A DNA stretch of 24,541 bases from a virus (IMGVR_UViG_3300037264_002341:1-24541), one strand, 5' to 3'; numbered from the stretch's first letter, positions 100 through 16,915 are shown. Translations and numbers: made by a program. The notes: generated by a model not told the origin, from the letters alone.

Positions 100-150
100 G
101 CGGAAGCAGGCCCAAAGTTGGGTGTCACAAACTTCCTGAAGGAGCAGGGC

Positions 151-3117
151 ATGAACATCTACGCGGACGGCACAACCCGCCTGTACGAGTTAAGTGAGAC
201 CACTGCCGGTCGCAAGGGAGTGCCATCCAGTTTCATTGCTCGTGCTCTCAAAGAAACCCCCATGGCCGTATACCTCTATGGTCCTGGGGTAGACTGTTGG
301 ATCCCCAAATACGCCATTAAGCTCGCGGACCCGAATCGTGTTCAAGAGGCAATCGAGGTTCCTGATGAACACCCTATGTTCGAGACAACCGCCGCCTCAA
401 GCAATGGACCACAACGCTACGCCAAAATCTCTCGCATTGGGCCCGCTCGACAGAGGATGATCAAAATCGTGTTCCCATATGATTGGAGGGATATTACCAA
501 CGTCAAGAAGATAAAGGGAGCACGATATCAGCATGAGGTAGACGAGAAGTTCTTTGTCTGTCCCATCTCCGTGGACGCGGTGACAGCTCTGGACCAACTC
601 CAGTTTGCTCTCTCTCCAAAGCTCTTGAAGCTCCTAAATGAATCTCAAACAAATGTAGATCAAATAGAAGCAGTGACCGTGCCGGGCCTACAGGGTAAAC
701 TGTATCCCTTCCAAGAGAAGGGAGTAGCATATACAGAGTTCAAAAACGGAATGGCTCTCCTCGCCGATGATATGGGCTTAGGCAAGACGGTTCAAGCTCT
801 CAGTTTTCTACAACTTCATCCGGAGCTACGACCCGCCGTAATTGTAGTTCCGGCCTCCCTCAAATTGAATTGGGCGAGGGAGGCCCGGAGATGGATGGAG
901 CGCCCCCGTGCCCGAGTTTTGTCAGGATCCAAAGCAAATCCCCGCTGGCTGAGAGGGGAAATTCTCATAATCAACTATGACATACTCGCAAACAAATATG
1001 AAAAGTACATCGACAAGAAAGATGGCAAAAAGAAGGAACGTGAGCAACCGTTCACCGGCTGGGTCGATTACATAAAAAATCTGAATCCAAAAGTGGTGAT
1101 ATTAGACGAATGCTTCCCTGCCGGCACTCTTATCTCCACCCCAAGGGGGGAAGTGCCCATAGAACAATTAAAAGAGGGGGACTCAATATACAACGCACTG
1201 GGGGTGGGAAACATCACGAAGAAGGGGGAAAGATTTACCCATCACTTAGTTCGCATAACCATGAATAATGGAAAACAAATTACTTGTACTCCAAACCATC
1301 CCTTTTTCACTACGGAGGGATGGTATCCAGCCGAAAACCTTGCAGAAAAATTTCTCTTGACTCCCGCAACGATTTTTAATATACTGGAACGCGACGATAT
1401 ATTAAGAGGAGATTCTGACCATGAAACTGCGTCGCGGGAACCGAATCTGCCAATGGTGCAAAAAACCATTCAAAGTCACCCCCAACACATCTCCCAAACA
1501 AAGATTCTGCGGGAAGTCCTGCTCAGCGAAGTGGAGAATGTCACAACCTTCAATAAGGAAGGCCGTATACACGAAGGAACGATCTCAGAAAATGTCCGTC
1601 GGTCTCCAGAAAGCCCACGCCAGAAATCCACAATGGGCAAAAGACAACTCCGAACGCATGACGAAGAACAACCCCACCACGAACTCCGAGGTGGTAAAAA
1701 AGATAAAGGAACATTGGAAGAAATTCGGGCATCCCTTACAAAAACAACAGCTCAAAGGCGGGAACGGCAGACCCCTCCCCGCTCCCCAAAGAATTTTACT
1801 GGCAGCTTTAGGATCAAAATGGAAGGCGGAATTTGTAATCCCCACTCGGATGCCTCGATCTTCTTGCTACCCGACTCATTACAAAGTAGATTTAGGACTA
1901 CCCCAAAGCAAGCTTTGGATCGAGTTAGACGGATGGATTCACGAACTTCCAGAAATAGAAGCACAAGACCGAAAGAAGGAACGATTCCTGCGAGAACGCG
2001 GGTGGAAAGGGTTGAGATTTTTGAATACAAGAGTTCTGCAAGACTTGGAGGGCGTCTTGTCTACAATCTCGAAGTCTCTGGACATCCCTCCTATTACGCT
2101 GAAGGAGTCTTAGTACACAACTGTCAATTCATCAAAAACAGCGCGGCTCATAGAACCAAAGCGGTCAAGAAGTTAGTCCAGGGGGTGCCTCATGTTCTTG
2201 GACTTACGGGGACAGCAATTGAGAACCGGCCTGCGGAGATTTACAACATTATCCGGATAGTCTGCCCCGCTCTGTTCCCAGACCGTTTCTCATTTCTGAG
2301 GCGATACTGTGCAGGACGGCATACTGGTTGGGGTTGGGACTTTTCTGGAGCCTCCAACACCAAAGAGCTTCATCAAAAGCTAATAAACTCTTGCATGCTA
2401 CGACGTAGAAAAGCGGACGTGCTGCCAGAATTACCAGCTAAAATCCGCTCCGTAGTGCCGATTGAACTGGATCTTACGGCAGCAAAACTCTACCGGAAGG
2501 CGGAGAGCGACTTTATTGGATGGGTGCGCGAGACGAGGGGGCATAAGGCGGCGAAAAGGGCATCAAACGCGGAGGCCCTAACTCGAATCGAGGGATTAAA
2601 GCAACTTGCTGTTAAAGCAAAGATGACTCAAATGGTCCGATGGATCAAAGACTTCCTAGAAGTGAAGGACAAACTCGTCATCTTTGCGGAACATAAGGAA
2701 GTAGTAAATCAGCTGATGGCGGACCTGACCTCCTACAACCCTGTAGTAGTCGCCGGAGGAGTCTCAAAAGAGAATCGGCAACGGGCAGTAGACCGCTTCC
2801 AGACCGAAGACAACGTGCGAGTGATCCTCGGCTCCAAATCTTTAGCGATGGGCTGGACCTTAACCGCCGCTGCGGACACCTGCTTCACGGAGCTTTGGTG
2901 GACTCCCGGACTTCATGTACAAGCCGAGGACCGGGTCCACCGAATAGGCCAGGAAGCAGACTCAGTCAATGCTTACTATTTGATCGCAACAGAAACCATC
3001 GAGGAGGAGATCGCAGCGTTGTTAGACAAGAAGCGGAAGGTGTTAGATCAAGTACTGGATGGGATAGAGACGGATGATTCCAGTCTGTTAACCGAGCTGA
3101 TGAATGCTTACTCCTGA
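151..3117 (+). CDS. SNF2-family DNA helicase/ATPase interrupted by an intein
   Basis: This is a superfamily 2 ATPase of the SNF2 type. The N-terminal segment around 463-600 resembles the HARP-like region of SMARCAL1-type proteins. Motif I (DDMGLGKT) is at 766-789. Motif II is split: LDE ends at 1110 and CQFIKN resumes at 2122 after a 337-residue intein. The C-terminal helicase lobe carries LGLTGTAIENRP near 2200 and the motif VI form QAEDRVHRIGQ near 2920-2950. The unspliced chain is 988 residues and the spliced protein is 651. The ATG at 151 is preferred over an in-frame TTG at 118 because AAGGAG sits seven bases upstream of it. SNF2 proteins of phages are thought to remodel forks or displace proteins from DNA. 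A sigma-like gene follows directly. Confidence 0.93.
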   Translation: MNIYADGTTRLYELSETTAGRKGVPSSFIARALKETPMAVYLYGPGVDCWIPKYAIKLADPNRVQEAIEVPDEHPMFETTAASSNGPQRYAKISRIGPARQRMIKIVFPYDWRDITNVKKIKGARYQHEVDEKFFVCPISVDAVTALDQLQFALSPKLLKLLNESQTNVDQIEAVTVPGLQGKLYPFQEKGVAYTEFKNGMALLADDMGLGKTVQALSFLQLHPELRPAVIVVPASLKLNWAREARRWMERPRARVLSGSKANPRWLRGEILIINYDILANKYEKYIDKKDGKKKEREQPFTGWVDYIKNLNPKVVILDECFPAGTLISTPRGEVPIEQLKEGDSIYNALGVGNITKKGERFTHHLVRITMNNGKQITCTPNHPFFTTEGWYPAENLAEKFLLTPATIFNILERDDILRGDSDHETASREPNLPMVQKTIQSHPQHISQTKILREVLLSEVENVTTFNKEGRIHEGTISENVRRSPESPRQKSTMGKRQLRTHDEEQPHHELRGGKKDKGTLEEIRASLTKTTAQRRERQTPPRSPKNFTGSFRIKMEGGICNPHSDASIFLLPDSLQSRFRTTPKQALDRVRRMDSRTSRNRSTRPKEGTIPARTRVERVEIFEYKSSARLGGRLVYNLEVSGHPSYYAEGVLVHNCQFIKNSAAHRTKAVKKLVQGVPHVLGLTGTAIENRPAEIYNIIRIVCPALFPDRFSFLRRYCAGRHTGWGWDFSGASNTKELHQKLINSCMLRRRKADVLPELPAKIRSVVPIELDLTAAKLYRKAESDFIGWVRETRGHKAAKRASNAEALTRIEGLKQLAVKAKMTQMVRWIKDFLEVKDKLVIFAEHKEVVNQLMADLTSYNPVVVAGGVSKENRQRAVDRFQTEDNVRVILGSKSLAMGWTLTAAADTCFTELWWTPGLHVQAEDRVHRIGQEADSVNAYYLIATETIEEEIAALLDKKRKVLDQVLDGIETDDSSLLTELMNAYS
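1111..2121 (+). mobile_element. Contiguous intein inserted in the SNF2 motif II (Walker B)
   Basis: The intein begins with Cys at 1111 (CFPAGTLISTPRGEVPIEQL, block A) and has block B TCTPNHPFF with the TxxH signature. It ends in block F (VYNLEVSGHPSYYAEGVL) and block G (VHN), with Cys+1 at 2122. The flanking exteins rejoin as LDE-CQFIKN, the SNF2 DExx box, so splicing restores an active-site motif. It is 337 residues long. Residues 1-103 are the splicing N part. The stretch from about 1421 to 2000 in this frame has no recognisable domain because a homing endonuclease is encoded there in the +1 frame. The last 40 residues are the splicing C part. All residues needed for standard cis-splicing (C1, TxxH, HN, C+1) are present. 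Confidence 0.95.
1421..2113 (+). CDS. Homing endonuclease nested out of frame inside the SNF2 intein (Vsr/DUF559-like)
   Basis: This 230-residue protein is read in the +1 frame relative to the surrounding intein. AGAGGAG at about 1405-1411 lies nine bases before its ATG. The N-terminus has a Cys4 zinc knuckle (CQWC and CGKSC). The middle is Lys/Asn-rich like the DNA-contact regions of phage homing endonucleases. The C-terminal domain resembles Vsr/DUF559 nucleases: YKVDLGL, then LWIELDGWIHE, an Asp-Arg helix and RGWKGLRFLN. Members of this EDxHD group cut DNA to spread their host intein. The helix that often carries a catalytic Glu reads PQRILL here, so activity is uncertain. The stop codon lies eight bases before the intein end, so its last ~38 codons overlap intein block F. 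Confidence 0.85.
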   Translation: MKLRRGNRICQWCKKPFKVTPNTSPKQRFCGKSCSAKWRMSQPSIRKAVYTKERSQKMSVGLQKAHARNPQWAKDNSERMTKNNPTTNSEVVKKIKEHWKKFGHPLQKQQLKGGNGRPLPAPQRILLAALGSKWKAEFVIPTRMPRSSCYPTHYKVDLGLPQSKLWIELDGWIHELPEIEAQDRKKERFLRERGWKGLRFLNTRVLQDLEGVLSTISKSLDIPPITLKES

Positions 3118-3130
3118 TAAGAGAGATGGT

Positions 3131-3601
3131 ATGAACAACATCGGTCTAATCAAGACTACTGCGTATCGCTTCCACAAGACCACGGGACTTCCCTACACAG
3201 ACCTCCTATCTGAGGCCGGCCTGGCCTACACCAAGGCGATTAAAGATTATGACCCGGAGCGAGGGGCATTAAGCACCCTCGCTGTCGTCTACATGACCAA
3301 TCATCTTTCCACTTATGTAACGGATGAGAAGTGGAGACCCAAGGAAACTCCGGTCATACAGGAGGTGGTGGATGAAACGGACGAGTTCCGCCGCAAGGAG
3401 TTCCTACAAGAATTAACCTTGCTCAGTTGGAGGACGCAGATTGCTTGTCGAATGGTTCTTTCCAATCAAGATGTTTACGCAGAGATGCCCCCCAAACTGG
3501 CTCGGGGGAAGCTACGGAGGGAATTGATCGCCTCCGGATGGTCTTGGAATGAGGTGTATACCACCTTTCGGGAGATAAGGGACTTCCTGAGAAAATTCTA
3601 A
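3131..3601 (+). CDS. Sigma-70-like small protein
   Basis: The 156-residue protein contains a segment resembling sigma-70 region 2: LLSEAGLAYTKAIKDYDPER, then LSTLAVVYMTNHL, the usual pattern of an amphipathic helix followed by a (Y/F)DPxRG turn. The C-terminal RGKLRRELIASGWSWNEVY could be a helix-turn-helix like region 4. It is shorter than a primary sigma factor and similar in size to minimal ECF or phage sigma-like proteins. The ATG at 3131 is preferred because AAGAGAG precedes it; an earlier in-frame ATG at 3104 lies inside the end of the helicase gene. It may direct RNA polymerase to phage promoters. Function is inferred from the region 2 resemblance only. Confidence 0.65.
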   Translation: MNNIGLIKTTAYRFHKTTGLPYTDLLSEAGLAYTKAIKDYDPERGALSTLAVVYMTNHLSTYVTDEKWRPKETPVIQEVVDETDEFRRKEFLQELTLLSWRTQIACRMVLSNQDVYAEMPPKLARGKLRRELIASGWSWNEVYTTFREIRDFLRKF

Positions 3602-3638
3602 GCCCATGGAGAGGGCTCCACAAGAGGAGGAACCCAAG

Positions 3639-3812
3639 ATGGAAGAGGTCCTGCTAACTGCAGAACAGTTGAGGGAGTTACTGAACAGGTATCGTTCCCT
3701 GCCCGAACCAAAGGACATGATTAAGAGGATCGAACGAATTTACAAAATTGAGAGACTAGAAAAGCTGCTAGCCCAGAAGGAACAGGAGGAGAAACAAAGG
3801 GCCTCTCCGTGA
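3639..3812 (+). CDS. Small charged helical protein, unknown
   Basis: A 57-residue protein rich in Glu, Lys, Leu and Arg, with a predicted continuous helix or short coiled coil (IERLEKLLAQKEQEEKQR). The ATG at 3639 has an excellent AAGAGGAGG eight bases upstream; a further in-frame ATG at 3606 lacks this. It resembles no family I can name. It sits just after the sigma-like gene. The 68 bases after it, up to 3880, hold no gene I can see other than the ribosome binding site of the next one. Confidence 0.6.
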   Translation: MEEVLLTAEQLRELLNRYRSLPEPKDMIKRIERIYKIERLEKLLAQKEQEEKQRASP

Positions 3813-3880
3813 TTCCTACGTTTCCGATAACCGCACAAGGCAGAGAAGGTGTCTGAGCCAAGAAAGCCAAGGGGAGGGGA

Positions 3881-4627
3881 ATGGAATCCTACTACATTGG
3901 TTGCTCCAAGAAGGGCTGTCGTCTTGCGTTCCCGCTCTGCAAAGCTCGCCAGAAGCATCAGAACTGCACGGTGGAGCAATGCAGAATAAGATCAACCTTC
4001 TCCAAGCAGATAGGAGGACGTTGTGTCCTAAAGCTAAAAGGTTGTCACTCTGGTTGTCGAGACTACAGAAACTTTCTAAGAGACAACCCAGAACGGGAGG
4101 AGCCCCTGGTGCGATCTTTAGTGCGGGGGAAGAAACCTGAACCTCTCCTAGCACGGGGATCGGGACGATTGGAAAGGGGCTCCAATCGCTTGATCCGGGG
4201 AGAGTCCAAATTGATGAGAGGAGATGGACCTATGTTAGTCTGTAAACTGACCGAGGATTGGGAACTACACACGGACCATGAAGGGCTCCCATTCCTGACC
4301 CATCCAGACTACTCAGGGCGAGTGGCCTTCCAGACCGCCTTATCTGAAACCGAAGACCACGAGGAATGGCTAGACATCGTCAAGAGGAGACGGGACCGCT
4401 ACAGGGAAAGCCTCGGCGAAAATCACAAGAAGTACAAAGCAGCAGACCAGTTCATCTGGTGGTGGGATCGAATCGGGAAGGTCGGCGGCTCCTCCGAAGA
4501 CGACCCCGTTGTCCTTTCTAGGAGGGCTTCAAACCCTTCTAGAAATGACGCAAAGCTCGTTAGGGAGGCCGGAGGTCGCCTAGAGCGAGGCAAGCCGTCT
4601 CCGTCGATGTTAAAGCGGGGAGGTTAG
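3881..4627 (+). CDS. Cys-rich protein with LxRG heptad repeats, unknown
   Basis: 248 residues, preceded immediately by a G/A-rich binding site. The first 60 residues hold nine Cys in C-x4-C, CTVEQC and GCHSGC arrangements, suggesting bound zinc or an Fe-S cluster. Then LxRG occurs at residues 80, 90, 97, 104 and 111; the last four are spaced exactly seven residues, encoded by 21-base imperfect repeats (4148-4231). RLERG and LKRGG return at the C-terminus. Residues 118-200 form a soluble domain rich in Trp, Glu and His. ATG 4232 (residue 118) follows AGGAG by eight bases, so a shorter product starting there is possible. No family recognised. Two perfect or near-perfect RNA hairpins lie inside the gene. 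Confidence 0.7.
   Translation: MESYYIGCSKKGCRLAFPLCKARQKHQNCTVEQCRIRSTFSKQIGGRCVLKLKGCHSGCRDYRNFLRDNPEREEPLVRSLVRGKKPEPLLARGSGRLERGSNRLIRGESKLMRGDGPMLVCKLTEDWELHTDHEGLPFLTHPDYSGRVAFQTALSETEDHEEWLDIVKRRRDRYRESLGENHKKYKAADQFIWWWDRIGKVGGSSEDDPVVLSRRASNPSRNDAKLVREAGGRLERGKPSPSMLKRGG
4148..4231 (+). repeat. Four 21-base imperfect tandem repeats encoding LxRG heptads
   Basis: Four 21-base units starting at 4148, 4169, 4190 and 4211 each encode Leu-x-Arg-Gly plus three variable residues. Protein spacing is conserved better than the DNA, with different Leu and Arg codons used, which points to old repeats held by selection on the protein. Confidence 0.75.
4166..4188 (+). repeat. Perfect 8-bp inverted repeat inside the LxRG gene
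   Basis: CGATTGGA at 4166-4173 and TCCAATCG at 4181-4188 pair perfectly around a 7-base loop. The hairpin lies within the LxRG tandem repeats, inside coding sequence. Confidence 0.6.
4515..4545 (+). repeat. 12-bp inverted repeat inside the LxRG gene
   Basis: TTTCTAGGAGGG (4515-4526) pairs with CCCTTCTAGAAA (4534-4545) around a 7-base loop; the single mismatch is a G-U pair in RNA. It lies in coding sequence about 80 bases before the stop codon. The arm contains GGAGGG, so folding could hide a Shine-Dalgarno-like sequence. There is no U-run, so it is not a classical terminator. Confidence 0.65.
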
Positions 4628-4628
4628 A

Positions 4629-5018
4629 ATGGAGCTGTTCTCAAAACTGGAGAAGGGCAACAAGATCATTGGGATCGTCGGCAGCCGAAGACGGGACACT
4701 GAAACCGACTTTCGCAAGGTCAAAGCTGCGTTAGGTCTGGTCTACAAAGGAGGGGACTGGATCTGTTCTGGCGGGTGTCTAAAGGGCGGGGACCGCTTCG
4801 CTTACAAACTGCACAAGATTCGTTGCATCCCATACTTAGAGTTCCCCGCGGACTGGAAGCAATATAGAAAAGCTGCGGGCTTCATCCGCAACAGTGACAT
4901 TGCCAAACACTCCGACATCCTCATTGCCTGCGTTGCGCAGGACAGAACGGGCGGGACGGAGGACACAATCCAGAAGTTCAAGAAGCATCATCCAGACGGC
5001 ATCGTAGTCTTAGTGTAA
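4629..5018 (+). CDS. SLOG-superfamily protein, DUF2493/YspA type
   Basis: The 129-residue protein matches the DUF2493 (YspA-like) branch of the SLOG Rossmann fold. Visible features are IGIVGSR at the N-terminal strand, CSGGCLKGGDRFAYK in the nucleotide-binding loop region, ADWKQYRKAAGFIRN, then SDILIACV and GGTEDTIQKF. Length is typical of the family. SLOG domains bind nucleotides or nucleotide-derived ligands; relatives include DprA and LOG enzymes, and phages often encode DUF2493 proteins of unsettled role. It starts one base after the stop of the LxRG gene. Confidence 0.85.
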   Translation: MELFSKLEKGNKIIGIVGSRRRDTETDFRKVKAALGLVYKGGDWICSGGCLKGGDRFAYKLHKIRCIPYLEFPADWKQYRKAAGFIRNSDIAKHSDILIACVAQDRTGGTEDTIQKFKKHHPDGIVVLV

Positions 5019-5032
5019 GAAGGTTGACCGAA

Positions 5033-5215
5033 ATGAAAATCAAGATAATAAGTAGAGTCCCGGACGTGGATGAACTAAAGAAAGCAATAGAAGAGGCGCT
5101 CAAACGTCCACGACCTTTCCTGAAAGATTATGATCCAGAAATCCTTGGAGTGCCTAAAGCACCCCTCACTCCCTACCAATGGGGACAACTCCGAGACAGG
5201 GCGACGAAGCGATAA
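5033..5215 (+). CDS. Small hypothetical protein
   Basis: A 60-residue protein with AGAAGG nine bases before the ATG at 5033. It has a Lys/Ile-rich N-terminus followed by VDELKKAIEEALKRP and a Pro-rich stretch ending in PYQWGQLRDRATKR. A TTG at 5024 is in frame but too close to the binding site. No family recognised. It lies 13 bases before the primase gene. Confidence 0.55.
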   Translation: MKIKIISRVPDVDELKKAIEEALKRPRPFLKDYDPEILGVPKAPLTPYQWGQLRDRATKR

Positions 5216-5228
5216 ACAATAAGACGCG

Positions 5229-6182
5229 ATGGACGTCAAGCAACTATTCCAAGACTATCATATCCACTTCATAACCGGGGGGAACAAGCATTGTACCGCC
5301 GGTTGGATCAATCTACACTGCCCGCTCTGTCCGGGAAGCAAGGACTATCATCTGGGCTTCCCCCTAAAAGGGAACTGGTTCAGGTGCTGGCGCTGCGGCT
5401 GGCATCCCCCCGACAAGGTAATCGCCAAACTCCTTCATATAGACCCAGATCAAGCTCAACAAATCGTAGACAAATACGGGGGGCACTCCCCTTCCACTCC
5501 AAACAAGGAACTCAAACCGCGCCTGAAGTCTCACCGGCTCCCTTCCAACATCGGCCCTCTCACGGAGCGCCACAAGCAGTATCTCGCAAAGCGAGGATTC
5601 GATCCAGACTATCTTGAAGAGGAATGGGGGCTGCTCGGCACCGGCCCGATAAGCCGCCTGGATGGTATCTCTTACAAACATAGGATCGTTGCTCCTATCA
5701 ACTGGGACGGCAAGCAAGTCAGCTTCCAAGCTCGGGACATTACAGGGAAAGCCCTTGCAAAATATCTGGCCTGCCCGAAGGCGCGAGAGTTAGTCCACCA
5801 TCAGCATATCCTCTACGGTAAGCAGGAGAAGTGGGGTGATGTTGGCATTTGCGTAGAGGGGATCACAGATGTCTGGCGACTCAGATCCAAAGCTTTTGCA
5901 GTGTTCGGTCTCGAATACACAAATCAACAAGTCCGTCAGATGGTCAAAGTCTTCCGCAAGATATGCGTGTTGTTCGACAATGACACGGGACCTCAAGGAC
6001 TAGTCAAGGCTAGGGAGTTGGTTAAGGTCTTGAAGTTCCGAGGAGTTAAGAGTTGGATGAAGGTCATCCAGGGTGATCCAGGAGAGATGGATCAAGACGA
6101 CGCAGATGCCCTAGTGCGCGAAATTATTAGCTATTCCGACAGCGAAAAAAATCCTTTACTTCGGCGCGGCCATCGGTTATAG
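5229..6182 (+). CDS. DNA primase (CHC2-type zinc finger plus Toprim)
   Basis: A 317-residue primase-like protein. The N-terminal zinc ribbon has Cys31, Cys34, Cys53 and Cys56 (CPLC and CWRC) in the position of the CHC2 finger of DnaG. The C-terminal half is a Toprim domain: VEGITDVWRL with the conserved Glu210, and VLFDNDTG with Asp250 and Asp252 for metal binding. It is shorter than DnaG and lacks a DnaB-binding C-terminal domain or fused helicase; the helicase is encoded separately at 8510. It would make RNA primers for replication. A weak ribosome binding site precedes the ATG. Confidence 0.88.
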   Translation: MDVKQLFQDYHIHFITGGNKHCTAGWINLHCPLCPGSKDYHLGFPLKGNWFRCWRCGWHPPDKVIAKLLHIDPDQAQQIVDKYGGHSPSTPNKELKPRLKSHRLPSNIGPLTERHKQYLAKRGFDPDYLEEEWGLLGTGPISRLDGISYKHRIVAPINWDGKQVSFQARDITGKALAKYLACPKARELVHHQHILYGKQEKWGDVGICVEGITDVWRLRSKAFAVFGLEYTNQQVRQMVKVFRKICVLFDNDTGPQGLVKARELVKVLKFRGVKSWMKVIQGDPGEMDQDDADALVREIISYSDSEKNPLLRRGHRL

Positions 6183-6187
6183 TAGAT

Positions 6188-6331
6188 TTGCGTCCTGATC
6201 GGGGGGCTCTTTCCACGAACCGCCAAGACGAGTTTCGTTGCCCTCCTGCAACGAAAGCGGGCCGCCCCCAGGACTAACGGGTTTGTGGAATCCCGGCTAG
6301 GACGCAACCTGGGCGCGGCCCGCTCCTTTTT
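6188..6331 (+). ncRNA. Candidate structured RNA element with a possible pseudoknot
   Basis: The 194-base gap between 6182 and 6377 holds extensive complementarity. Outer stem: 6188-6204 with 6291-6307 (about 17 bp, one mismatch, some G-U; TTGCGTCCT to AGGACGCAA is perfect). Second stem: 6211-6221 with 6280-6290 (11 bp, one G-U). Terminal hairpin: TTTCGTTGC 6233-6241 with 6248-6256, loop CCTCCT. In addition GCGGGCCGC (6257-6265), inside the second stem, is a perfect complement of 6315-6323 downstream, which would form a pseudoknot. A TTTTT follows at 6327. It could be a regulatory RNA, an attenuator or a DNA-level replication signal. No known RNA family recognised. Confidence 0.5.
6311..6331 (+). 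terminator. Possible Rho-independent terminator
   Basis: The GC-rich segment GGGCGCGGCCCGC is followed by TCC and a run of five T (6327-6331). The 3' strand can pair locally (GGGC with GCCC, 3-base loop) or with 6257-6265. The competing pairings could make termination conditional. The local stem is short, so confidence is low. Confidence 0.35.
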
Positions 6332-6376
6332 CACGTTGCCCACTCTTCGTATTGGGGCCATGGAGGCGTAAGGGAC

Positions 6377-6568
6377 ATGTCATCCAAAGTAGTAACAGCC
6401 AAAGGCAAACTATTCAAGATCATTGCACTACGACCCGCCGCATCCCTCGCTTTCCTTTTCCTTGCCCGCAGAACCGACTTCAACCTTGATAGTGAAGTCA
6501 ATAAACTGCTGATCCAGAAGGCAAAAGATCTGGGTTGGGCAAAATCTACTCCGGTCTCTGCGGAGTAG
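6377..6568 (+). CDS. Small hypothetical protein
   Basis: A 63-residue basic protein starting at the ATG at 6377, with GGAGG at 6362-6366 upstream. The middle (LRPAASLAFLFLARR) is hydrophobic but flanked by charged residues; the C-terminal part (NKLLIQKAKDLGWAK) looks helical. It ends three bases before the next ATG. No family recognised. It separates the structured intergenic element from the initiator-like gene. Confidence 0.5.
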   Translation: MSSKVVTAKGKLFKIIALRPAASLAFLFLARRTDFNLDSEVNKLLIQKAKDLGWAKSTPVSAE

Positions 6569-6571
6569 GAC

Positions 6572-10036: not shown

Positions 10037-10117
10037 TCTTTACAAACAGTTACGGTTCAGGAGAAGATTTTTTGAAATTTTTGCTCTTGAGTCATAAAGG
10101 AAACTAAACCTCAGGAG

Positions 10118-10123
10118 TATAAT
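10118..10123 (+). promoter_or_regulatory. Candidate promoter -10 box
   Basis: The 109-base gap at 10037-10145 contains a perfect TATAAT at 10118-10123. An A/T-rich stretch with runs of T lies at 10066-10082, upstream-element-like. No TTGACA-like -35 is found at 16-18 bases spacing; TTGAGT at about 10087 is too far. A phage-modified polymerase or a sigma factor with different needs could use it. It lies 23 bases before the next start codon. Confidence 0.4.
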
Positions 10124-10145
10124 ATCGTAGAGCGGGAGAACGGGG

Positions 10146-11459
10146 ATGCCGAAGGAGGTCCTGAAACTTAACGGCGTTAGGTTGCTTAGCTTGGAACCGC
10201 GCGACATAGTCACCGCCATCCTCCATACATTCCCGGACATTCATTACTGGAGCCCGGATGGGCTCAGGCAGCTCTGGAAGGCCGCATTCGATGTAGCTTT
10301 GGAGTTTGTAAAAACCCAAATTAAGAATGAAAGGGGGTCGAAACGGAGTGCATTAACTCGCTTCCGTAAAAGAGCGGAATGGAAGTTGTGGAGCGTGCGC
10401 CGGAGTGGGTCAAGCATGCTTACTCGGGTCTACAACGAGATGCTTGCTAATGAAGGTCACGGGTTACTGCGGGGCTTCGGCTTCGCCAACAAATTGGGAC
10501 AACCGATTTTGGGGAATGCTGAAGTCCAACCGTGCATACTGTTTCAACCGTATCAGGACTCAGAAACAATCTCTAACCAAGAGGAGGAAGTCATGTCAGA
10601 GCTGGAGTTCACGAAGAAGGAACTGAAGGACGCCCTTGAGGACGTCAACGAGACCCTGGACCTCGGCAAGACCTCCATGTCCACCAAGGGGGGTGAAGAG
10701 GAGCTGCTGGAGCGCCTGACCAAGGCCGCTCTCCAGAAGGATGGCGAGGGCAACTTCTTCATCACCGACAAGGACGAGGTCAACAAGAAGACCCGCAAGA
10801 TCATCGACGCCATCCGCGAGAACGCGGAGGAGGACGAGGAGAAGCCCAAGAAGAAGGCCAAAGCCAAGGCCGAGGCCGAGGACGAGGAGGAGGAGAAGCC
10901 CAAGAAGAAGGCCAAGGACGAGGACGACGAGGAGAAGCCCAAGGCCAAGACCAAGGTCAAGGACGAGGATGAGGAGAAGCCCAAGAAGAAGGCCAAGGAC
11001 GAGGACGAGGACGAGGACGGCGAGAAGTCCCTGGCCGACCAGGTCGCGGAGTGCTCCAAGCTGAAGCTGCTCAAGCAGATGGTCGAGGACAACAGTGAGT
11101 TCAAGAAGCTCCGCAAAAAGCTGGACGACTACAAGTTGCTGGAGGGCTTCCGCGAGCTGAAGAACGACATGTACGAGGCCCTGGGCGTCGAGCCCCCCAA
11201 GAAGAAGGCCCCCAAGAAGAAGGAGGAGACCGGCCCGCGCTACACCCGGCTCCACGCCGTCGCCGATGCCCTGAAGGAGGGCAAGACCACGAACCGGGAG
11301 AAGCTGGTCCAGCGGTCTTCTGATCTGTTCGCAGAGCATGGTGGCCACGACAACCTGCGGGAGCAGAAGGCCGACTTCGAGCGGGCCTCCAAGCTCCTGA
11401 CCGCACTCGGCCTGGCCAAGGACAACGGCAAGGAGTTCGAGTACACTCCTGAGGGCTAG
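10146..11459 (+). CDS. Long form of the charged protein: unknown N-terminal domain in frame with the Lys/Glu-rich protein
   Basis: One frame of 437 codons runs from ATG 10146 (GGGAG seven bases upstream) to TAG 11459. The first 149 codons encode a soluble unknown domain (VRLLSLEPRDIVTAILHTF, then a Trp- and Arg-containing helical region) with ordinary mixed codon use. From codon 150, exactly at an internal ATG with AGGAGG five bases upstream (10593), codon use switches almost completely to G- or C-ending codons. This looks like two genes joined in frame by loss of a stop, or one gene with two starts. Whether the full-length fusion is made cannot be decided from sequence. Confidence 0.55.
   Translation: MPKEVLKLNGVRLLSLEPRDIVTAILHTFPDIHYWSPDGLRQLWKAAFDVALEFVKTQIKNERGSKRSALTRFRKRAEWKLWSVRRSGSSMLTRVYNEMLANEGHGLLRGFGFANKLGQPILGNAEVQPCILFQPYQDSETISNQEEEVMSELEFTKKELKDALEDVNETLDLGKTSMSTKGGEEELLERLTKAALQKDGEGNFFITDKDEVNKKTRKIIDAIRENAEEDEEKPKKKAKAKAEAEDEEEEKPKKKAKDEDDEEKPKAKTKVKDEDEEKPKKKAKDEDEDEDGEKSLADQVAECSKLKLLKQMVEDNSEFKKLRKKLDDYKLLEGFRELKNDMYEALGVEPPKKKAPKKKEETGPRYTRLHAVADALKEGKTTNREKLVQRSSDLFAEHGGHDNLREQKADFERASKLLTALGLAKDNGKEFEYTPEG
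10593..11459 (+). CDS. Highly charged Lys/Glu-rich protein, codon-optimised (short form)
   Basis: 288 residues from an internal ATG with a very strong ribosome binding site (GAGGAGGAAG). The N-terminal 80 residues are mixed alpha/beta-like (SELEFTKKELKDALEDVNE). Residues about 82-150 are a low-complexity alternation of acidic and basic blocks with four EEKPKxKxK copies. After a helical region and a second basic patch (PPKKKAPKKK), the C-terminal 70 residues (RYTRLHAVADALKEGKTTN to the end) look like a folded helical domain. Such charge-patterned proteins include histone-H1-like DNA-binding proteins, but no family is recognised. Extreme G/C-ending codon use, its own candidate promoter and the strong hairpin afterwards suggest high expression. 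Confidence 0.75.
   Translation: MSELEFTKKELKDALEDVNETLDLGKTSMSTKGGEEELLERLTKAALQKDGEGNFFITDKDEVNKKTRKIIDAIRENAEEDEEKPKKKAKAKAEAEDEEEEKPKKKAKDEDDEEKPKAKTKVKDEDEEKPKKKAKDEDEDEDGEKSLADQVAECSKLKLLKQMVEDNSEFKKLRKKLDDYKLLEGFRELKNDMYEALGVEPPKKKAPKKKEETGPRYTRLHAVADALKEGKTTNREKLVQRSSDLFAEHGGHDNLREQKADFERASKLLTALGLAKDNGKEFEYTPEG
10836..10997 (+). repeat. Four 27-base repeats encoding EEKP(K/A)KKAK-type units
   Basis: Copies at 10836-10862, 10890-10916, 10929-10955 and 10971-10997 each encode Glu-Glu-Lys-Pro-Lys followed by four mostly Lys/Ala residues. They are separated by acidic spacers of 27, 12 and 15 bases, all multiples of three. The third copy is divergent (KAKTK). Unequal spacing and near-identical DNA suggest recent slippage-driven expansion. 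Confidence 0.8.
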
Positions 11460-11473
11460 TCCCTCGACAAGCA

Positions 11474-11533
11474 GGGGACTTCTAGGGTCTGCTAACCTGA
11501 AAACCTCCGTAGCAGCGGAGGCCCGAAGTCCCC
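11474..11533 (+). other. Structured intergenic RNA with competing stems
   Basis: After the charged-protein gene, GGGGACTTC (11474-11482) pairs perfectly with GAAGTCCCC (11525-11533). Inside it CCTCCG (11504-11509) can pair with CGGAGG (11516-11521), and CTGCTA (11489-11494) can pair with TAGCAG (11510-11515). The last two pairings overlap in topology and are probably alternatives. Confidence 0.5.
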
Positions 11534-11540
11534 GCTCTGC

Positions 11541-11567
11541 GCGGGAGGGGGGGATGCCCCCTCCCGC
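11541..11567 (+). terminator. Strong hairpin, likely terminator or mRNA 3' end stabiliser
   Basis: GCGGGAGGGGG (11541-11551) pairs perfectly with CCCCCTCCCGC (11557-11567), an 11-bp GC-rich stem with loop GGATG. It lies in the 141-base gap between the charged-protein gene and the FAD gene. No U-run follows, so it would be an atypical intrinsic terminator, or may protect the 3' end of the upstream message. Confidence 0.55.
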
Positions 11568-11600
11568 ACTAAGACTCCCAAATTAGTTTCAAAGGGTGCT

Positions 11601-12506
11601 ATGATGTTGTTTCTTGAACAACACTTCCTCGAACCAGAACGCCGGAAGCAAGCCGAATTTGCTGTGGTAGGAGCGGGTCTTATGGGCGCTACCATAGCAG
11701 AGATGCTACGATCTTGCGGATTGACTGGTGTTCTCCTGGACGATCCTTCCCCCTCGAATGAACCTGGAACCCGGGCTTGCGGAGGGCTTATCAAGCCTTC
11801 TCCCCTCTCAGGTCTCTCCTCAGAACAGACGAACAAATCCCTTGCTATACTTGACCGCTTCTTCGGCCTGCATCCGGAGACTCTGATCATTCGTCCGAGC
11901 GGGAATCTGATAAAGGCGAATGTTCAAGCAGTAAATATGGATCACATCTTCGCAGTCCCCCGAACCCCGGCCTTGGTGCACCGCGTCCACTCCGGAGTGC
12001 TACAATACCTCGATCAAAAAGACCGTATCGTGGAGTTAGAAAGCCCCTTGATCGTGGTGGCCGCAGGACCGGGAACACTAAACCTCTTCCCTCAGTTGAG
12101 AAGTTGTCTAGTAGTCAAACGGGGCTTCTCATTCCATATGAAAGGACGAGTCGCTCAGGGCTTCGTGAAGTTCTGGGCGCCCTACAAACAGGTTACGGTA
12201 CACAACACCCGCTTCGAGGGGGAGAAGATTGTATGGGCGGGTGAGGGGTCTGCCTTACGGCTTGAAAACTGGTATAGGGGGCGGATTCGGGAGGGACTAG
12301 CTCGTGTCCGGAAGGAGCTGCCTGAAAAGGAATATCCTCTCATCCGCACGGTGACGGGCCTCCGTCTGTTCCACCATCACCGTAAGCCTTGTTTCGTAGA
12401 GAAAATGGATAAAGGATTATATGTAGTAACCGCCGCTGGTAAGTTCGGATTGATCTCCGCCGGTTACGCTGCGATGGAGGTGGCCAAACATGAAAGACTT
12501 GCTTGA
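11601..12506 (+). CDS. FAD-dependent oxidoreductase (DAO/glycine-oxidase-like)
   Basis: 301 residues. The dinucleotide-binding motif VVGAGLMGATIAEML (GxGxxG at 24-29) followed by an acidic residue ending strand 2 (LLDD) marks an FAD Rossmann fold. The C-terminal RTVTGLRLF and the GLYVVTAAGKFGLISAGYAA segment match the end of D-amino-acid/glycine oxidase family proteins, where it contacts FAD. It is shorter than typical DAO enzymes (about 360-380), with a reduced substrate domain. It opens the metabolic cassette and overlaps the aldo/keto reductase gene by 17 bases. Substrate unknown; amines or amino-acid adducts are likely for the family. Confidence 0.8.
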   Translation: MMLFLEQHFLEPERRKQAEFAVVGAGLMGATIAEMLRSCGLTGVLLDDPSPSNEPGTRACGGLIKPSPLSGLSSEQTNKSLAILDRFFGLHPETLIIRPSGNLIKANVQAVNMDHIFAVPRTPALVHRVHSGVLQYLDQKDRIVELESPLIVVAAGPGTLNLFPQLRSCLVVKRGFSFHMKGRVAQGFVKFWAPYKQVTVHNTRFEGEKIVWAGEGSALRLENWYRGRIREGLARVRKELPEKEYPLIRTVTGLRLFHHHRKPCFVEKMDKGLYVVTAAGKFGLISAGYAAMEVAKHERLA

Positions 12507-13485
12507 GCGACTTCGGGATTACAAGAGTCTAGTGGATGCGAAGCGGGACCCAGAGATGTATGATTTCCTTTGGGGGGTCACTTGCCAAATTGGTTGTCGC
12601 CTCGGGGTGGATGAGTTTGTTCAGGAGTACGGCTGGCCGGGGCTTAAAGCGGTAGCCGAGCACCCCTTCCATCATGTCTATGTTAGCGATCCAGTCAAGA
12701 TCGAGCCTTACCGACCCCAACTGGCTATCGGCACTTACAGATGGAAATATGACCCAAAACCAATTTTGCTTGCCATTAAAAAAGGAGTGGATTTTATTGA
12801 CACTGCTCCTACCTATGGTTACGGCAAAGTGGAAGAGCGTCTGAAGGACGTGCTTACAGGAAAGAAGTTGGAGGTGGTAATAGGTTCCAAATTCGCTAGG
12901 AACAGGATGTCCTTCAACAACGTAGTCAGTTCCTGTAGGCGGACGGCCAAACGCTTCACGACTCTTCCGATCCACCTACAGCTCCATTGGCCGAATATAA
13001 AGTATCCTCTTCCTGAGGCACTACGGGCAATGCGATACTTGTTCAAGAATGGGGAAGTTGCTAGTCTCGGCGTCTGCAACATGTCGGTACCATTACTCCG
13101 TGTCGCCCGATCTTTGGCGCCTATCTCGACTGTTCAAGGACCGCTGAGCGTTTTCGTGCCTCAAGCCAAGGACTTTCTGTTGCCCTATTGCGAGAAAGAG
13201 GGGTTGACCTTCTTGGCTTACGGTCCTCTAGGTCAGGAGCCAAAAAAGCTCCTCCAGGAACGGGATCCAAAAGGCTTCTTCAAGAGGAAGGCCCGCGAAC
13301 TGAATTGCGAAGTCTCCCAAGTCCTCCTCGCGTGGGTCTGGGCTCAGGGGGCGGTCCCGATGCCCGCAACGAACAAGGTGGAACATATGAGAAGCAATCT
13401 TGACGCTCAGCAGGTGGACATGCCCCCCGACATCGTTCAGGAAATAAATGACTTCATGGAGAAAGCGGGGGCGGTGAGAAGTTAG
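12490..13485 (+). CDS. Aldo/keto reductase
   Basis: 331 residues, with GGAGGTGG six bases before the ATG. The (beta/alpha)8 NADPH-dependent reductase fold is shown by LAIGTYRW, FIDTAPTYGYGKVEERL and SLGVCNMS. The catalytic tetrad is complete: Asp104, Tyr109, Lys134 (IGSKF) and His166 (LQLHWPN). The C-terminal VLLAWVWAQGAVPMPATNKVEHM corresponds to the cofactor 2'-phosphate region. There is an extra N-terminal segment of about 70 residues (with WGVTCQIGCRLG) not usual in the family. It would reduce a carbonyl, perhaps one made by the FAD enzyme upstream. Such a gene is unusual in a phage replication region. Confidence 0.9.
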   Translation: MKDLLERLRDYKSLVDAKRDPEMYDFLWGVTCQIGCRLGVDEFVQEYGWPGLKAVAEHPFHHVYVSDPVKIEPYRPQLAIGTYRWKYDPKPILLAIKKGVDFIDTAPTYGYGKVEERLKDVLTGKKLEVVIGSKFARNRMSFNNVVSSCRRTAKRFTTLPIHLQLHWPNIKYPLPEALRAMRYLFKNGEVASLGVCNMSVPLLRVARSLAPISTVQGPLSVFVPQAKDFLLPYCEKEGLTFLAYGPLGQEPKKLLQERDPKGFFKRKARELNCEVSQVLLAWVWAQGAVPMPATNKVEHMRSNLDAQQVDMPPDIVQEINDFMEKAGAVRS

Positions 13486-14577
13486 ATGTCCTCCATATAC
13501 ATACCAAAAAGCCGGACGGGATTGAGTGTTCGAGGAGATTCATTGTATTGCCCCCTTGCCTTCACTCTTGATCCATATTGGTGGTGCGAGCCGGATTGTC
13601 TCCATTGTTATCTGCGTCGTCTCAACAAACTTTGGGGCACGGAACAGCGGGGGTTGAATTTAGAAAAGCTGGACCATCGCCTGTCTATGGGCCCTCTCAG
13701 GAAAAAACCAAAAACACCCCTAGCCAATTGTTTGGCAAACCGCAACACGATACGAGTGGGTAACAAAGCGGACCCCTTCCAACCGATAGAGCGGCAGCAA
13801 CGGTTGGCTACCCATTCCCTTCGACTTCTGTACAAATACCGATGGTCGTTTGTCATCCAGACCCGGTTTCCGGGGACGGTTCTGGACTTGGCCTCGACAA
13901 TCTTGGAGAAGTGCGTCCCACTCAATCTCGCTACTGTTATGCCCGTCATCTCTCCGGGGATGGAGCGAGATTGGGAACTGTTTGAGCAGAAGCGCACGGA
14001 GCCCATCAAAGAGCGTCTGAGGTCTATCAAAGACCTCATTAAGATAGGCGTGAATGTAGGAGTCAATGGAGAGCCCTTTATTCCGGGCTTCCATGTCCTT
14101 GGAGATTTCGAGGACACTTTGAAAAGGCTCAAAGCAATAGGAGTGAGTCGTTACAACACTTACAACTTACACTTCACCGAATTCGTAGCCAAGCGGATCC
14201 ACGATTTGCCAGGAGTAGATATAGAAAGGATATGGTATGAAAATCAAGACAAGCGTTGGCGCATTACCCTTACTAGGCTAATCGAGCTTGCAAAGAAACA
14301 CAACTTCATTCTCGGCTGTCCTGATTTCGTCAACTCCGGTCCCCGCCATCTGGAAGAGGCTAACACCTGTTGTGGAGTGGACGTTCCACGACCCACGACA
14401 TTCAATACGCACTATTTCAAACGTCTTGCTCAAAAGGGCTATGTAGCAGAGAGGATAGTCAAGTCCACTTGGGATGGAGTGGGAGACCTTGACCGGGGTC
14501 GAAAGATCATTCGGGGAGCTAAGACAGATTTTTACACCTTAAAAGACGCCGAGGTGAAGGTCAAGGAGAGTGGCTAA
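13486..14577 (+). CDS. Radical SAM enzyme, spore-photoproduct-lyase-like
   Basis: 363 residues. The 4Fe-4S site Cys34-x3-Cys38-x2-Cys41 lies in WWCEPDCLHCY. Downstream, RVGNKADPFQPIERQQRL followed by a TxxFPGT strand and a VMPVISPGMERDWE segment matches the SPL-like branch of radical SAM proteins, whose founding member acts on thymine lesions in DNA. A CCGVDVPRP segment near the C-terminus gives extra Cys. It begins directly after the stop of the reductase gene and shares one base with the next gene, so the cassette is translated as a unit. Substrate is unknown; a DNA base is possible by analogy with SPL. Confidence 0.85.
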   Translation: MSSIYIPKSRTGLSVRGDSLYCPLAFTLDPYWWCEPDCLHCYLRRLNKLWGTEQRGLNLEKLDHRLSMGPLRKKPKTPLANCLANRNTIRVGNKADPFQPIERQQRLATHSLRLLYKYRWSFVIQTRFPGTVLDLASTILEKCVPLNLATVMPVISPGMERDWELFEQKRTEPIKERLRSIKDLIKIGVNVGVNGEPFIPGFHVLGDFEDTLKRLKAIGVSRYNTYNLHFTEFVAKRIHDLPGVDIERIWYENQDKRWRITLTRLIELAKKHNFILGCPDFVNSGPRHLEEANTCCGVDVPRPTTFNTHYFKRLAQKGYVAERIVKSTWDGVGDLDRGRKIIRGAKTDFYTLKDAEVKVKESG

Positions 14578-15455
14578 TGAGTCTCCGAAGGAACACTCCT
14601 GTAGAGGAATATCCACTCGCCGTCCGCGTGTCCAACGTCCCGGTTAGGATAAGGGGGCCGGTAGATATTTTGGTCAAGCGAGAGGACCTTTGCTGCGATC
14701 CTCCGGGGCCTCCCTTCGCTAAGGTCCGGGGTCTCTTAATCCGCCTTCAGAATTTGAAAAGGCAAGGTCTTCACACTATTGGCTATATGGAAAACTCAAT
14801 CTCTATGAATGGCTGGGGAGTGGCCTGGACCTGTGCTGAATTAGGTATGCAAGCGGTCATCTATGACCCCCAATACAACTGCTATTCAGAGGTTCTGGAC
14901 TACCACCGCAAGCTTTGGAAGGAGCTTGGAGCTTTGATCCGGACAAATCCGGGGGGTGTATCCAAAGTGGATTTCGCCGTCTGCCGAGACACCTTTGAGA
15001 AGGAGTTCGGTCCAAATGCGACTCTGCTCTATCCCGGTCTGTCGTTCATCGAGACGGTGATCGCAACTGCAGAGGAAGTTGAGAGGACGATAAAACGTCT
15101 GAAGAAACGGGCGAAGACGGTTGTGGTCAACGTTGGAAGCGGGATTATTGCTGCTGGGATCTGGCGAGGTTTTGAGAAACATTGTCCGGATGTAATCATA
15201 CACGGCATCATGGGACACTCGGGAGACTTAACCCGGAAGATGAATGACATCGAGAAGAATTCCGGACTCCTCCATCAAAAGCAACTCCGATCCAAGTTTG
15301 TACTCCATGATCCCGGTTGGAAATACACCGAACCAAGCGAAGTTCCAAGTCCCTTCCCCTGTAATCAATTCTATGATTTGAAGGCGTGGGAGTGGCTTGT
15401 TCAAAATTTTCATAGGCTCGATGAACCGATCCTCTTCTGGAACATTGGGGCATAG
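14577..15455 (+). CDS. PLP-dependent enzyme, fold type II (ACC-deaminase/Trp-synthase-beta-like)
   Basis: 292 residues. The segment DILVKREDLCCDPPGPPFAK resembles the N-terminal part of fold-type II enzymes, with Lys49 in FAKVRG the likely Schiff-base lysine. SMNGWGVAWTCAELGMQAVI matches the substrate/cofactor loop and helix, and NVGSGIIAAGIWRGF replaces the glycine-rich phosphate-binding loop. It is slightly short for the fold. Relatives carry out beta-elimination, deamination or replacement on amino acids. It lies between two radical SAM genes, sharing one base with the first (TAATGA). Substrate unknown. Confidence 0.75.
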   Translation: MSLRRNTPVEEYPLAVRVSNVPVRIRGPVDILVKREDLCCDPPGPPFAKVRGLLIRLQNLKRQGLHTIGYMENSISMNGWGVAWTCAELGMQAVIYDPQYNCYSEVLDYHRKLWKELGALIRTNPGGVSKVDFAVCRDTFEKEFGPNATLLYPGLSFIETVIATAEEVERTIKRLKKRAKTVVVNVGSGIIAAGIWRGFEKHCPDVIIHGIMGHSGDLTRKMNDIEKNSGLLHQKQLRSKFVLHDPGWKYTEPSEVPSPFPCNQFYDLKAWEWLVQNFHRLDEPILFWNIGA

Positions 15456-15457
15456 TC

Positions 15458-15994
15458 ATGGACTATTTTGAGCTAAGACGCCTCGTCAGCCGGATCGTTC
15501 CCCGTATGACCCAACTTCAAGTGTCCAAACGGAAGGTGGACGCGGTGAAGGAGAAGGGGCGCAAGAAGAACTATCATCAATTCAACCTGCGCGATGGGGA
15601 ATGGCGGAAGCAGGAACGGCTTCTGAATACCGAGGCCATCAACTCCTTCCTGGAAATCTCGGTGAGAGCGGCAGCCTGCCCGATGCCCTTCAATATGGAC
15701 ATTTGGGACGGGCTTCTCTGTGTTGCGGAAGGGCAACGGGTCCAGACCTCTGATGGAAAAGTTCCTATCGAGAAAGTCAAGGCTTGTGATGTTGTCTGGA
15801 CTTTCAACGAGGAGGAACAGCGCCGCCAACTGGCTCGGGTAACTCAAATCTCTAACACCATTCGAAAGAACCTGGTTGAAGTTGAGACCGAAGAGGGGAC
15901 CATCCGGTTAACTGAAGACCACCGAGTGCTTACCCAACGGGGTTGGATTCCTGCGGGGCAACTTACGGAAGAAGACCTGATGTATGTCTGGTAA
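15458..15994 (+). CDS. Radical SAM enzyme N-extein fused to split intein N half
   Basis: 178 residues. Residues 1-87 are the N-extein of a second radical SAM protein, ending WDGLL. Cys88 (nt 15719) begins an intein: block A CVAEGQRVQTSDGKVPIEKV and block B RLTEDHRVLT with the TxxH signature, then a stop at 15992 soon after GWIPAGQL. The intein N half is 91 residues. The C-extein is encoded 0.8 kb downstream in the same frame (16796-18076), where IntC ends HN followed by Cys. This half lacks the Fe-S cysteines and cannot be an active enzyme alone. The full 473-residue protein needs trans-splicing. The stop overlaps the endonuclease gene by 11 bases. Confidence 0.93.
   Translation: MDYFELRRLVSRIVPRMTQLQVSKRKVDAVKEKGRKKNYHQFNLRDGEWRKQERLLNTEAINSFLEISVRAAACPMPFNMDIWDGLLCVAEGQRVQTSDGKVPIEKVKACDVVWTFNEEEQRRQLARVTQISNTIRKNLVEVETEEGTIRLTEDHRVLTQRGWIPAGQLTEEDLMYVW
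15719..15991 (+). mobile_element. Split intein, N-terminal half (IntN)
   Basis: 91 residues from Cys1 to the residue before the stop codon, with blocks A and B. Together with the 40-residue IntC this gives a 131-residue mini-intein, the size of known natural split inteins. Confidence 0.92.
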
Positions 15995-16814
15995 GCTCTG
16001 TAAATGCGGTTGTGGAATTCCCATCCCTTTCGGCTCAACCTGGGCAAAGGGACACAACCGTCGGGGGGAGAAGCACTCGAAGGCCGCTCTCCAGAAGATG
16101 CGAGAAGCCCGACTGGGAAACACCCCTTGGAATAAAGGGAAGCCCAGAACTGAAGAAGAGAAGGAAGCGATGCGGCGGGGCATCTCTACAGAAGAGCGGG
16201 AGAGGCGTTCCAAAAGGACAACGAGAGGTTGGAAGGAAGGTCGGTACGATTTCATGAATGGCAAGACTAACCCGGCCTGCCGTCCGGAGGTCGCTACCAA
16301 AATAGGGGAAGCCAACAAAGGCCGGATTATCTCGAAAGCTACCAGACACAAGTTGAGTAAATCCCGCCTGGGGAAACCCGGCCAGGTCGTCTCGGAGAGG
16401 GTAAAGAAGCTCCACTCCAAACGGATGAAGAAGGACAATCCCATGTATCACAAGGACGTTCTTCAAAATCATCCGGTCCTCCGAGGGGGAAGGTACTACA
16501 TTTCCATCGGAGAGAACAAGGTGGCCGGGCTTCTGACCGAGATGGGGATAGCCTTTGAGAGGCAAAAGCTCCTCCGCAAACAGGTCGGCTACTACGTTGC
16601 GGACTTCTTCTTAACCGGCCACGACGCAATAATCGAGTTTGACGGGCACTATTCTCATGTAGAGAACGCGGAGAAGGACCGTCAGCGAGACTGCTATCTC
16701 TTGAGAAGATACGGCTACCGAACTCTGCGCTTGGTGTCCATGGATCTGAACAATAGGAACAGAGAAGACCTTATCCAGAAGATACGGGAGTTTCTATGGA
16801 ACTCAAACCAGTAA
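15984..16814 (+). CDS. Free-standing homing endonuclease between the split intein halves
   Basis: 276 residues. The N-terminus has a Cys motif (CKCGCG) and several NUMOD3-like segments (GHNRRGEKHSKAALQKMREA, LGNTPWNKGKPRTEEEK, GRIISKATRHKLSKSRLG), which are DNA-binding repeats of phage homing endonucleases. The C-terminal nuclease is Vsr/DUF559-like (EDxHD group): GENKVAGLLTEMGI, YYVADFFL, AIIEFDGHYSH, then KDRQRDCYLLRRYGYRTLRL. The Glu, Asp and His-Asp residues expected for the group are all present. It should cut an intein-free allele of the radical SAM gene. Its start overlaps IntN by 11 bases and its end overlaps IntC by 19, so all three cistrons are coupled. It is in the +1 frame relative to the halves. 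Confidence 0.88.
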   Translation: MSGKLCKCGCGIPIPFGSTWAKGHNRRGEKHSKAALQKMREARLGNTPWNKGKPRTEEEKEAMRRGISTEERERRSKRTTRGWKEGRYDFMNGKTNPACRPEVATKIGEANKGRIISKATRHKLSKSRLGKPGQVVSERVKKLHSKRMKKDNPMYHKDVLQNHPVLRGGRYYISIGENKVAGLLTEMGIAFERQKLLRKQVGYYVADFFLTGHDAIIEFDGHYSHVENAEKDRQRDCYLLRRYGYRTLRLVSMDLNNRNREDLIQKIREFLWNSNQ

Positions 16815-16915
16815 AGGTGAAACGGGTCCGCAAGATTCCAGGGGAGTATCGAGTGTACGATATCACCGTGGACCGCAACTCCAACTTCTTCGCGGAGGGG
16901 CACCTAGTTCACAAC
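16796..16915 (+). mobile_element. Split intein, C-terminal half (IntC)
   Basis: 40 residues with blocks F and G, ending in His-Asn just before Cys+1 at 16916. It provides its own start codon and ribosome binding site. Confidence 0.92.

Follow-up and report, generated by a model that had tools for sequence, protein, structure and literature searches.

A family of phage inteins overprinted by out-of-frame EDxHD endonuclease genes, with a split clade nested among open members

The main result of this analysis is a family of overprinted inteins, in which a continuous intein read in the frame of its host gene shares its DNA with an endonuclease gene read in another frame. One member interrupts an SNF2-type helicase gene in the window, by which we mean the whole viral record analysed here (24.5 kb); a second intein in the same window interrupts a radical SAM gene and is split. 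The open, overprinted state is an old and widespread architecture under very strong selection, not a brief stage on the way to something else.

An endonuclease gene overprinted on a continuous intein

The helicase ORF occupies positions 118-3117 of the plus strand and is stop-free throughout (999 aa), with Pfam matches to SNF2-rel_dom, Helicase_C and Intein_splicing. Its N-extein (118-1110) and C-extein (2122-3117) flank a continuous intein of 337 aa in the helicase frame (1111-2121, from C1 at 1111 to the N that ends at 2121), which interrupts Walker B as ILDE|CQF. The junctions read ILDE|CFPAGT on the N side and LVHN|CQFIKN on the C side, and the intein has the features of class 1, namely Cys1, blocks A and B, and a C-terminal HN followed by Cys, Ser or Thr at the +1 position. 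It is matched by TIGR01445 (1.4e-8), TIGR01443 (6.6e-6) and Pfam Intein_splicing (6.8e-10). On the same strand, in +1 relative to the helicase, lies the gene for HEN1, an EDxHD/DUF559 endonuclease with a zinc finger (1421-2113; Pfam DUF559 1.4e-11). Its ATG at 1421 stands 310 nt after C1 (103 codons plus 1 nt, hence the +1 frame), its stop is a TAG at 2111-2113, and a Shine-Dalgarno-like AAGAGGAG precedes it on the plus strand at 1404-1411 (anti-SD duplex -8.4 kcal/mol). The 3' end of HEN1 overlaps IntC by ~118 nt (1996-2113, plus strand), a dual-coded stretch that specifies the block F/G region of IntC in the helicase frame and the C-terminal strand and helix of HEN1 in +1.

Predicted structures were obtained for both readings of this DNA. 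The AlphaFold model of HEN1 has a pLDDT of 90.3, and the best Foldseek match of its nuclease domain is I-Bth0305I (3r3p), with a probability of 1.00 but an E-value of 0.014. In the host frame, the predicted intein has Hint halves at residues 1-85 and 294-337 (pLDDT ~80-97) around a disordered middle, and its top Foldseek match is the gp41-1 intein (6qaz, E 1.4e-6). One reading of the DNA is thus modelled as a confidently predicted nuclease, the other as two Hint halves with a disordered linker between them. We assign HEN1, and also HEN2 of the radical SAM locus, to the EDxHD nucleases on the basis of DUF559 in both and, for HEN1, the fold match to 3r3p; across 45 rows HEN1 residues D157, D170, G171, H174 and D183 are invariant, and E168 is nearly so.

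Single-protein scans with HEN2 or the SNF2 protein as query returned almost no relatives, and those of HEN1 were reached through tblastn against annotated phages and then through alignment queries. The tblastn search gave 40 records (Vibrio, Pseudomonas and Corynebacterium phages), and in the 7 that were fetched the HEN1 match lay within a helicase-like ORF, in +1 to that ORF. Alignment queries against IMG/VR and 84,980 genomes yielded 137 open loci, which form 86 clusters at 90% identity. The HEN frame is +1 in all 86 clusters, DE stands directly before C1 in 82 of them (Walker B, DE|C), and 77 have the HN end. Hosts tested include SNF2 and ResIII/XPB-type helicases and a DNA polymerase III clamp-loader protein, while some host proteins have no Pfam match outside the intein. 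Shine-Dalgarno duplexes are stronger at HEN starts than at internal ATGs (median -7.3 vs -3.8, P 7e-8). The helicase records we examined are annotated without the out-of-frame endonucleases; gene callers overlook overprinted endonucleases of this kind.

Two further arrangements were seen during these scans. The SNF2 protein at L076:1792-5745 combines an overprinted Walker B intein with a LAGLIDADG endonuclease domain upstream, which is probably part of a second intein. In L153, L155, L156 and L157 (L154 is partial), related endonucleases are fused in frame in full-length inteins that end HN|CRCM or similar; nucleases of this type thus occur in the classical layout as well.

The first-pass annotation had described the SNF2 frame as still open, which is correct for the frame itself but suggests a passing stage that the stop counts do not bear out. 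HEN codons were permuted among synonymous positions, which preserves the protein and its codon usage, and stops in the host frame were counted. For HEN1 the host frame has 0 stops against a mean of 6.4 expected (P = 7e-4), with no depletion of stops in its third frame (10 vs 9.1 expected). Over the 86 open clusters there are 0 host-frame stops against 760.9 expected; because the open class is defined by the absence of such stops, the weight of this figure rests on the bimodality of the counts and on controls. The third frame of the open loci shows no depletion (1269 stops vs 1185 expected), HEN-like rows without a flanking intein have 123 stops against 125.5 expected, and the split clade described below has 105 against 104.0. 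The bimodal counts and these controls argue against circularity of the open class, and the open host frame is maintained by selection.

Divergence at host codon positions 1/2/3 was compared in 14 independent pairs (an earlier set comprised 110 non-independent pairs). IntN (.15/.11/.31) and the tail of IntC (.06/.05/.34) show the host pattern, and the middle of the intein (.32/.14/.12) shows that of the HEN, whose position 3 is host position 1. In the HEN/IntC overlap the values are.12/.06/.09, and both frames are constrained. In most open relatives the 3' end of the HEN also codes for IntC, with a median overlap of 95 nt; typically, the bases of the HEN motif GWKVLRF are also those of the IntC motif RVESVEI. 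About 95 nt serve two conserved folds, that of the nuclease and that of the splicing domain, and splicing and homing, two selfish strategies, are joined in overlapping frames.

Split members and putatively mobile alleles of the family

Conversion from the open to the split state has occurred within the HEN1 family, in which a split clade is nested among open loci. Its four members (L040, L075, L082 and L093) form a single branch (SH-aLRT 99) among 85 open rows in a quick tree; our trees come from quick searches, are unrooted and have moderate support in their deep branches. The host frames of the split clade contain 15-35 stops each, their IntC start codons are ATGs inside the HEN ORF, and the overlap register of HEN and IntC is that of the open loci. 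In L075, L082 and L093 the IntC ATG lies in gaATGc, where the HEN reads ECD and most open relatives have QD, and L040 starts its IntC at a different ATG. Both the N half and the C half of L082 carry helicase and intein domains. The first-pass annotation had proposed that an endonuclease gene enters a mini-intein in another frame, that the host frame at first stays open, and that it gains stops once IntC acquires its own start. The nested split clade and its IntC starts support this process for the HEN1 family, but it does not extend to the two window loci from which it was drawn.

A survey for intermediates, suggested by the same annotation, was partly rewarded. L148, whose host is clamp-loader-like by motif, has 1 host-frame stop against 16.5 expected and is otherwise stop-free, although metagenomic contigs can contain errors and this single stop could be one. 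Recoding of TAG in L148 was considered and is unlikely, as the L148 HEN also terminates at a TAG, at the place where its relatives end. The other intermediate, an IntC start without a stop, has no clear case among the 86 open loci: a host-frame ATG is found near IntC in 11 of the 86, but the Shine-Dalgarno sequence is weak at most of these. In L146, split intein halves flank a deleted, frameshifted HEN. The likely order, read across different lineages, is an empty site or mini-intein, an open overprinted intein, a first stop, a split intein and, finally, loss of the HEN.

Alleles in close Vibrio phages bear on the mobility of the element. At identical codons these phages have a 356-aa HEN-intein (L006), a 150-aa mini-intein (L220 and L222) or, in L219, an uninterrupted DE|CHH site, and the flanks of L006 and L219 are 97-100% identical over 30 nt. 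Indirectly, such a distribution suggests that endonucleases of the HEN1 family may cut the intein-free allele and drive homing.

Some loci have the endonuclease outside the helicase gene. HEN1-family endonucleases at L061:3965-4603 and L160:3977-4582 lie just upstream of a helicase gene without an intein. The helicase frame of L061 is broken at motif II, perhaps through sequencing error, and the old host frame of L160 has a partial stop deficit (19 vs 26.5 expected), which suggests a recent departure from an open intein. In addition, two Vibrio phage helicases (L221:301-3432 and L223:301-2802) have two inteins each, one at Walker B and another that seems to interrupt Walker A (..THN|T).

The radical SAM locus and the proposed mechanism

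The radical SAM gene of the window is interrupted by an intein in two pieces. On the plus strand, the N-half with IntN spans 15458-15994 (IntN 15719-15991, TAA 15992-15994), and after C1 at 15719 the host frame has TAA stops at 15992 and 16001, with nine stops up to IntC. HEN2, an endonuclease with NUMOD3 and DUF559 (EDxHD), follows at 15984-16814 on the same strand; it starts 265 nt after C1 and is therefore in +1, its start overlaps the IntN stop, and its stop overlaps the IntC start. A Shine-Dalgarno-like GGGAG (16786-16790, plus strand, -6.9 kcal/mol) precedes IntC and the radical SAM C-half (16796-18076, plus strand). IntC itself (16796-16915, 40 aa) is in the IntN frame, and the C-half begins CPFACIYC after the junction LVHN|CPFACIYC at 16915/16916. 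Pfam and NCBIfam confirm radical SAM and the intein N and C termini. All coordinates in the first-pass annotation were correct, and it was right that both endonucleases are in +1 to their host gene, that the SNF2 frame is open, and that the radical SAM frame has the stops at 15992 and 16001 with IntN and IntC in one frame.

Most of 45 radical SAM homologues have no intein. L184-L186 and L216 have a continuous mini-intein at the exact window site, 136 aa long in L184, and the window radical SAM intein matches that of L184 best (39.7% identity, 108 bits; next 69). In these four genes, and in L175 and L187, the third Cys of CxxxCxxC is the site of a second intein, which is split and has its endonuclease fused in frame to IntC; L218 has a continuous mini-intein at that Cys. 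Both sites therefore show split beside unsplit mini-inteins, a pairing that occurs at least twice in this gene. An open out-of-frame stage was not found at the radical SAM site among the 45 homologues, which show empty, mini and split states; the sole hint of a former open stage is a mild stop deficit in the host frame of HEN2 (7 vs 12.1 expected by synonymous shuffle, P = 0.03).

In L184 (2403-3407 and 3395-5248), as in L185, L186 and L216, the CxxxCxxC motif of a single gene thus holds both inteins, the continuous mini-intein ahead of its first Cys and the split one at its third. Genes for aldo/keto reductase-like, radical SAM-like, PLP-enzyme and radical SAM proteins cluster at positions 12490-18076 of the window and may form a small-molecule or base-modification module. 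A lysine- and glutamate-rich low-complexity protein is encoded at 10146-11459, where long antisense ORFs are likely compositional artefacts.

We hold with considerable confidence that HEN1 and its intein represent a family of mobile inteins with an out-of-frame EDxHD endonuclease, that this family became split in at least one lineage, and that the fractured radical SAM gene arose independently. In the mechanism we propose, a single transcript would provide two readings of the intein DNA. Ribosomes in the helicase frame would read the endonuclease gene as an unstructured linker of ~200 residues within the intein, and the precursor would splice in cis, restoring the helicase Walker B; initiation at the internal Shine-Dalgarno sequence and ATG would yield the +1 product, the endonuclease. 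This enzyme would cleave alleles that lack the intein, at the conserved codons of Walker B, and the element would so spread by homing. Both the splicing of these inteins and the translation of the HENs are predictions from sequence. As the 3' end of the endonuclease gene doubles as IntC, both frames are kept. The overprinted state is stable, but release of the host frame took place in at least one lineage, where IntC acquired a start codon inside the endonuclease gene and stops rose to chance level; the two halves now encoded would splice in trans. The radical SAM locus, an IntN-HEN-IntC fractured gene with overlapping starts and stops, would likewise act by trans-splicing, a state reached independently and with a different EDxHD endonuclease; HEN2 probably entered a mini-intein like that of L184. 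It is tempting to speculate that overprinting is a general, stable form of phage inteins and host-frame release a recurrent origin of split inteins, a generalization to which we give even chances.

Several other readings of these loci were weighed. Taken strictly, the model of the first-pass annotation makes the two window loci an earlier and a later step of a process within a single lineage, and indeed they have an equal +1 offset, HEN starts after 103 and 88 intein residues and EDxHD nucleases in common, and the HEN2 stop deficit points the same way. By the refutation test that the annotation itself set, the common offset may be chance, however, and HEN1 and HEN2 share the DUF559 nuclease core alone (24% identity). 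The profile of the HEN1 family gives HEN2 20 bits and most members roughly 115-290, which places HEN2 outside the family; the inteins of the two loci also take different, weakly resolved, places in the phylogeny that the annotation had called for. In addition, HEN2 overlaps IntC by just 19 nt against ~118 nt for HEN1, so the loci are not one architecture with and without stops, and the intein closest to that of the radical SAM gene, at the same site in L184, is a continuous mini-intein that lacks a HEN. We therefore regard stages of a single lineage as improbable. HEN2 has no phage relatives by tblastn, and its tree position, a long unplaced branch, was discarded as a long-branch artefact.

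Programmed frameshifting, which would make the endonuclease as a fused IntN-HEN protein, is suggested by the overlap of the frames and by HEN ORFs that are open upstream of the ATG in many loci. We think it quite improbable nonetheless, given the strong Shine-Dalgarno sequences and ATGs at HEN starts and the split loci, where IntN ends in stops and yet the HEN persists. Trees that leave the root uninferred would accommodate a split ancestor from which the open form was derived by stop loss, but this would require the loss of 15-35 stops in ~190 codons, and the split loci are one branch among the open rows with an unchanged HEN/IntC register, which makes such an origin very improbable. Finally, the open frame might be a by-product of HEN codon or amino-acid usage and not of selection, as the non-significant single-locus P of a few very G+C-rich loci (L028, L036 and L062) could suggest. 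The shuffles preserve that usage, and depletion is absent from the third frame, from the split clade and from the rows that lack a flanking intein; usage is refuted as the sole cause, and we find this account scarcely credible. An overprinted intein kept open by selection, and released in at least one lineage, is the reading we prefer.

Comparison with known systems

In canonical inteins, an in-frame endonuclease domain lies between IntN and IntC. The HEN1 family resembles them in its Hint halves and in the point of nuclease insertion, but its nuclease is in another frame and overlaps IntC at its 3' end. Fractured genes, in which split inteins have an intervening homing endonuclease gene, were reportedly described by Dassa et al. 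in 2009 (NAR 37:2560). The radical SAM locus is like them, with an IntN-extein ORF and a separate IntC-extein ORF flanking an endonuclease gene of the EDxHD/Vsr type. The SNF2 locus is unlike them: its host ORF is unbroken from 118 to 3117, and the endonuclease overprints an intein that is itself continuous. To our knowledge, neither a continuous overprinted intein nor an open-to-split series has been reported, and searches of the open-licence literature gave no account of a functional intein that contains an out-of-frame endonuclease.

Split inteins are widely used tools, and the origin of the naturally split ones is an open question. Because open, one-stop, split and dead-nuclease split members are all present, the order and the mechanism proposed here are directly testable. 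The split and mini inteins from this analysis may also serve as reagents.

Three published systems share features with these loci. The AceL NrdHF split class 3 intein, on a phage-like contig, has a GIY-YIG nuclease (PMC7891396). In its intervening nuclease gene it resembles the fractured layout of the radical SAM locus, and it differs in nuclease type and intein class; the passages of PMC7891396 consulted describe no overlapping frame. I-Bth0305I, an EDxHD homing endonuclease from a mobile group I intron (PDB 3r3p; PMC3943268), matches HEN1 structurally in its nuclease domain, but does not occupy a second frame of an intein. Phage methylases can contain the ShiLan domain, an HNH endonuclease hidden in a different reading frame (Arsenault et al., 2025, PMC11855218). 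Like the SNF2 locus, it combines an insertion that encodes its endonuclease out of frame with an open host frame and a homing-like distribution. ShiLan, however, is an insertion without a splicing domain, with an HNH nuclease and no detectable Shine-Dalgarno sequence (PMC11855218), whereas the SNF2 locus has an intact intein in the host frame, an EDxHD nuclease and a Shine-Dalgarno sequence.
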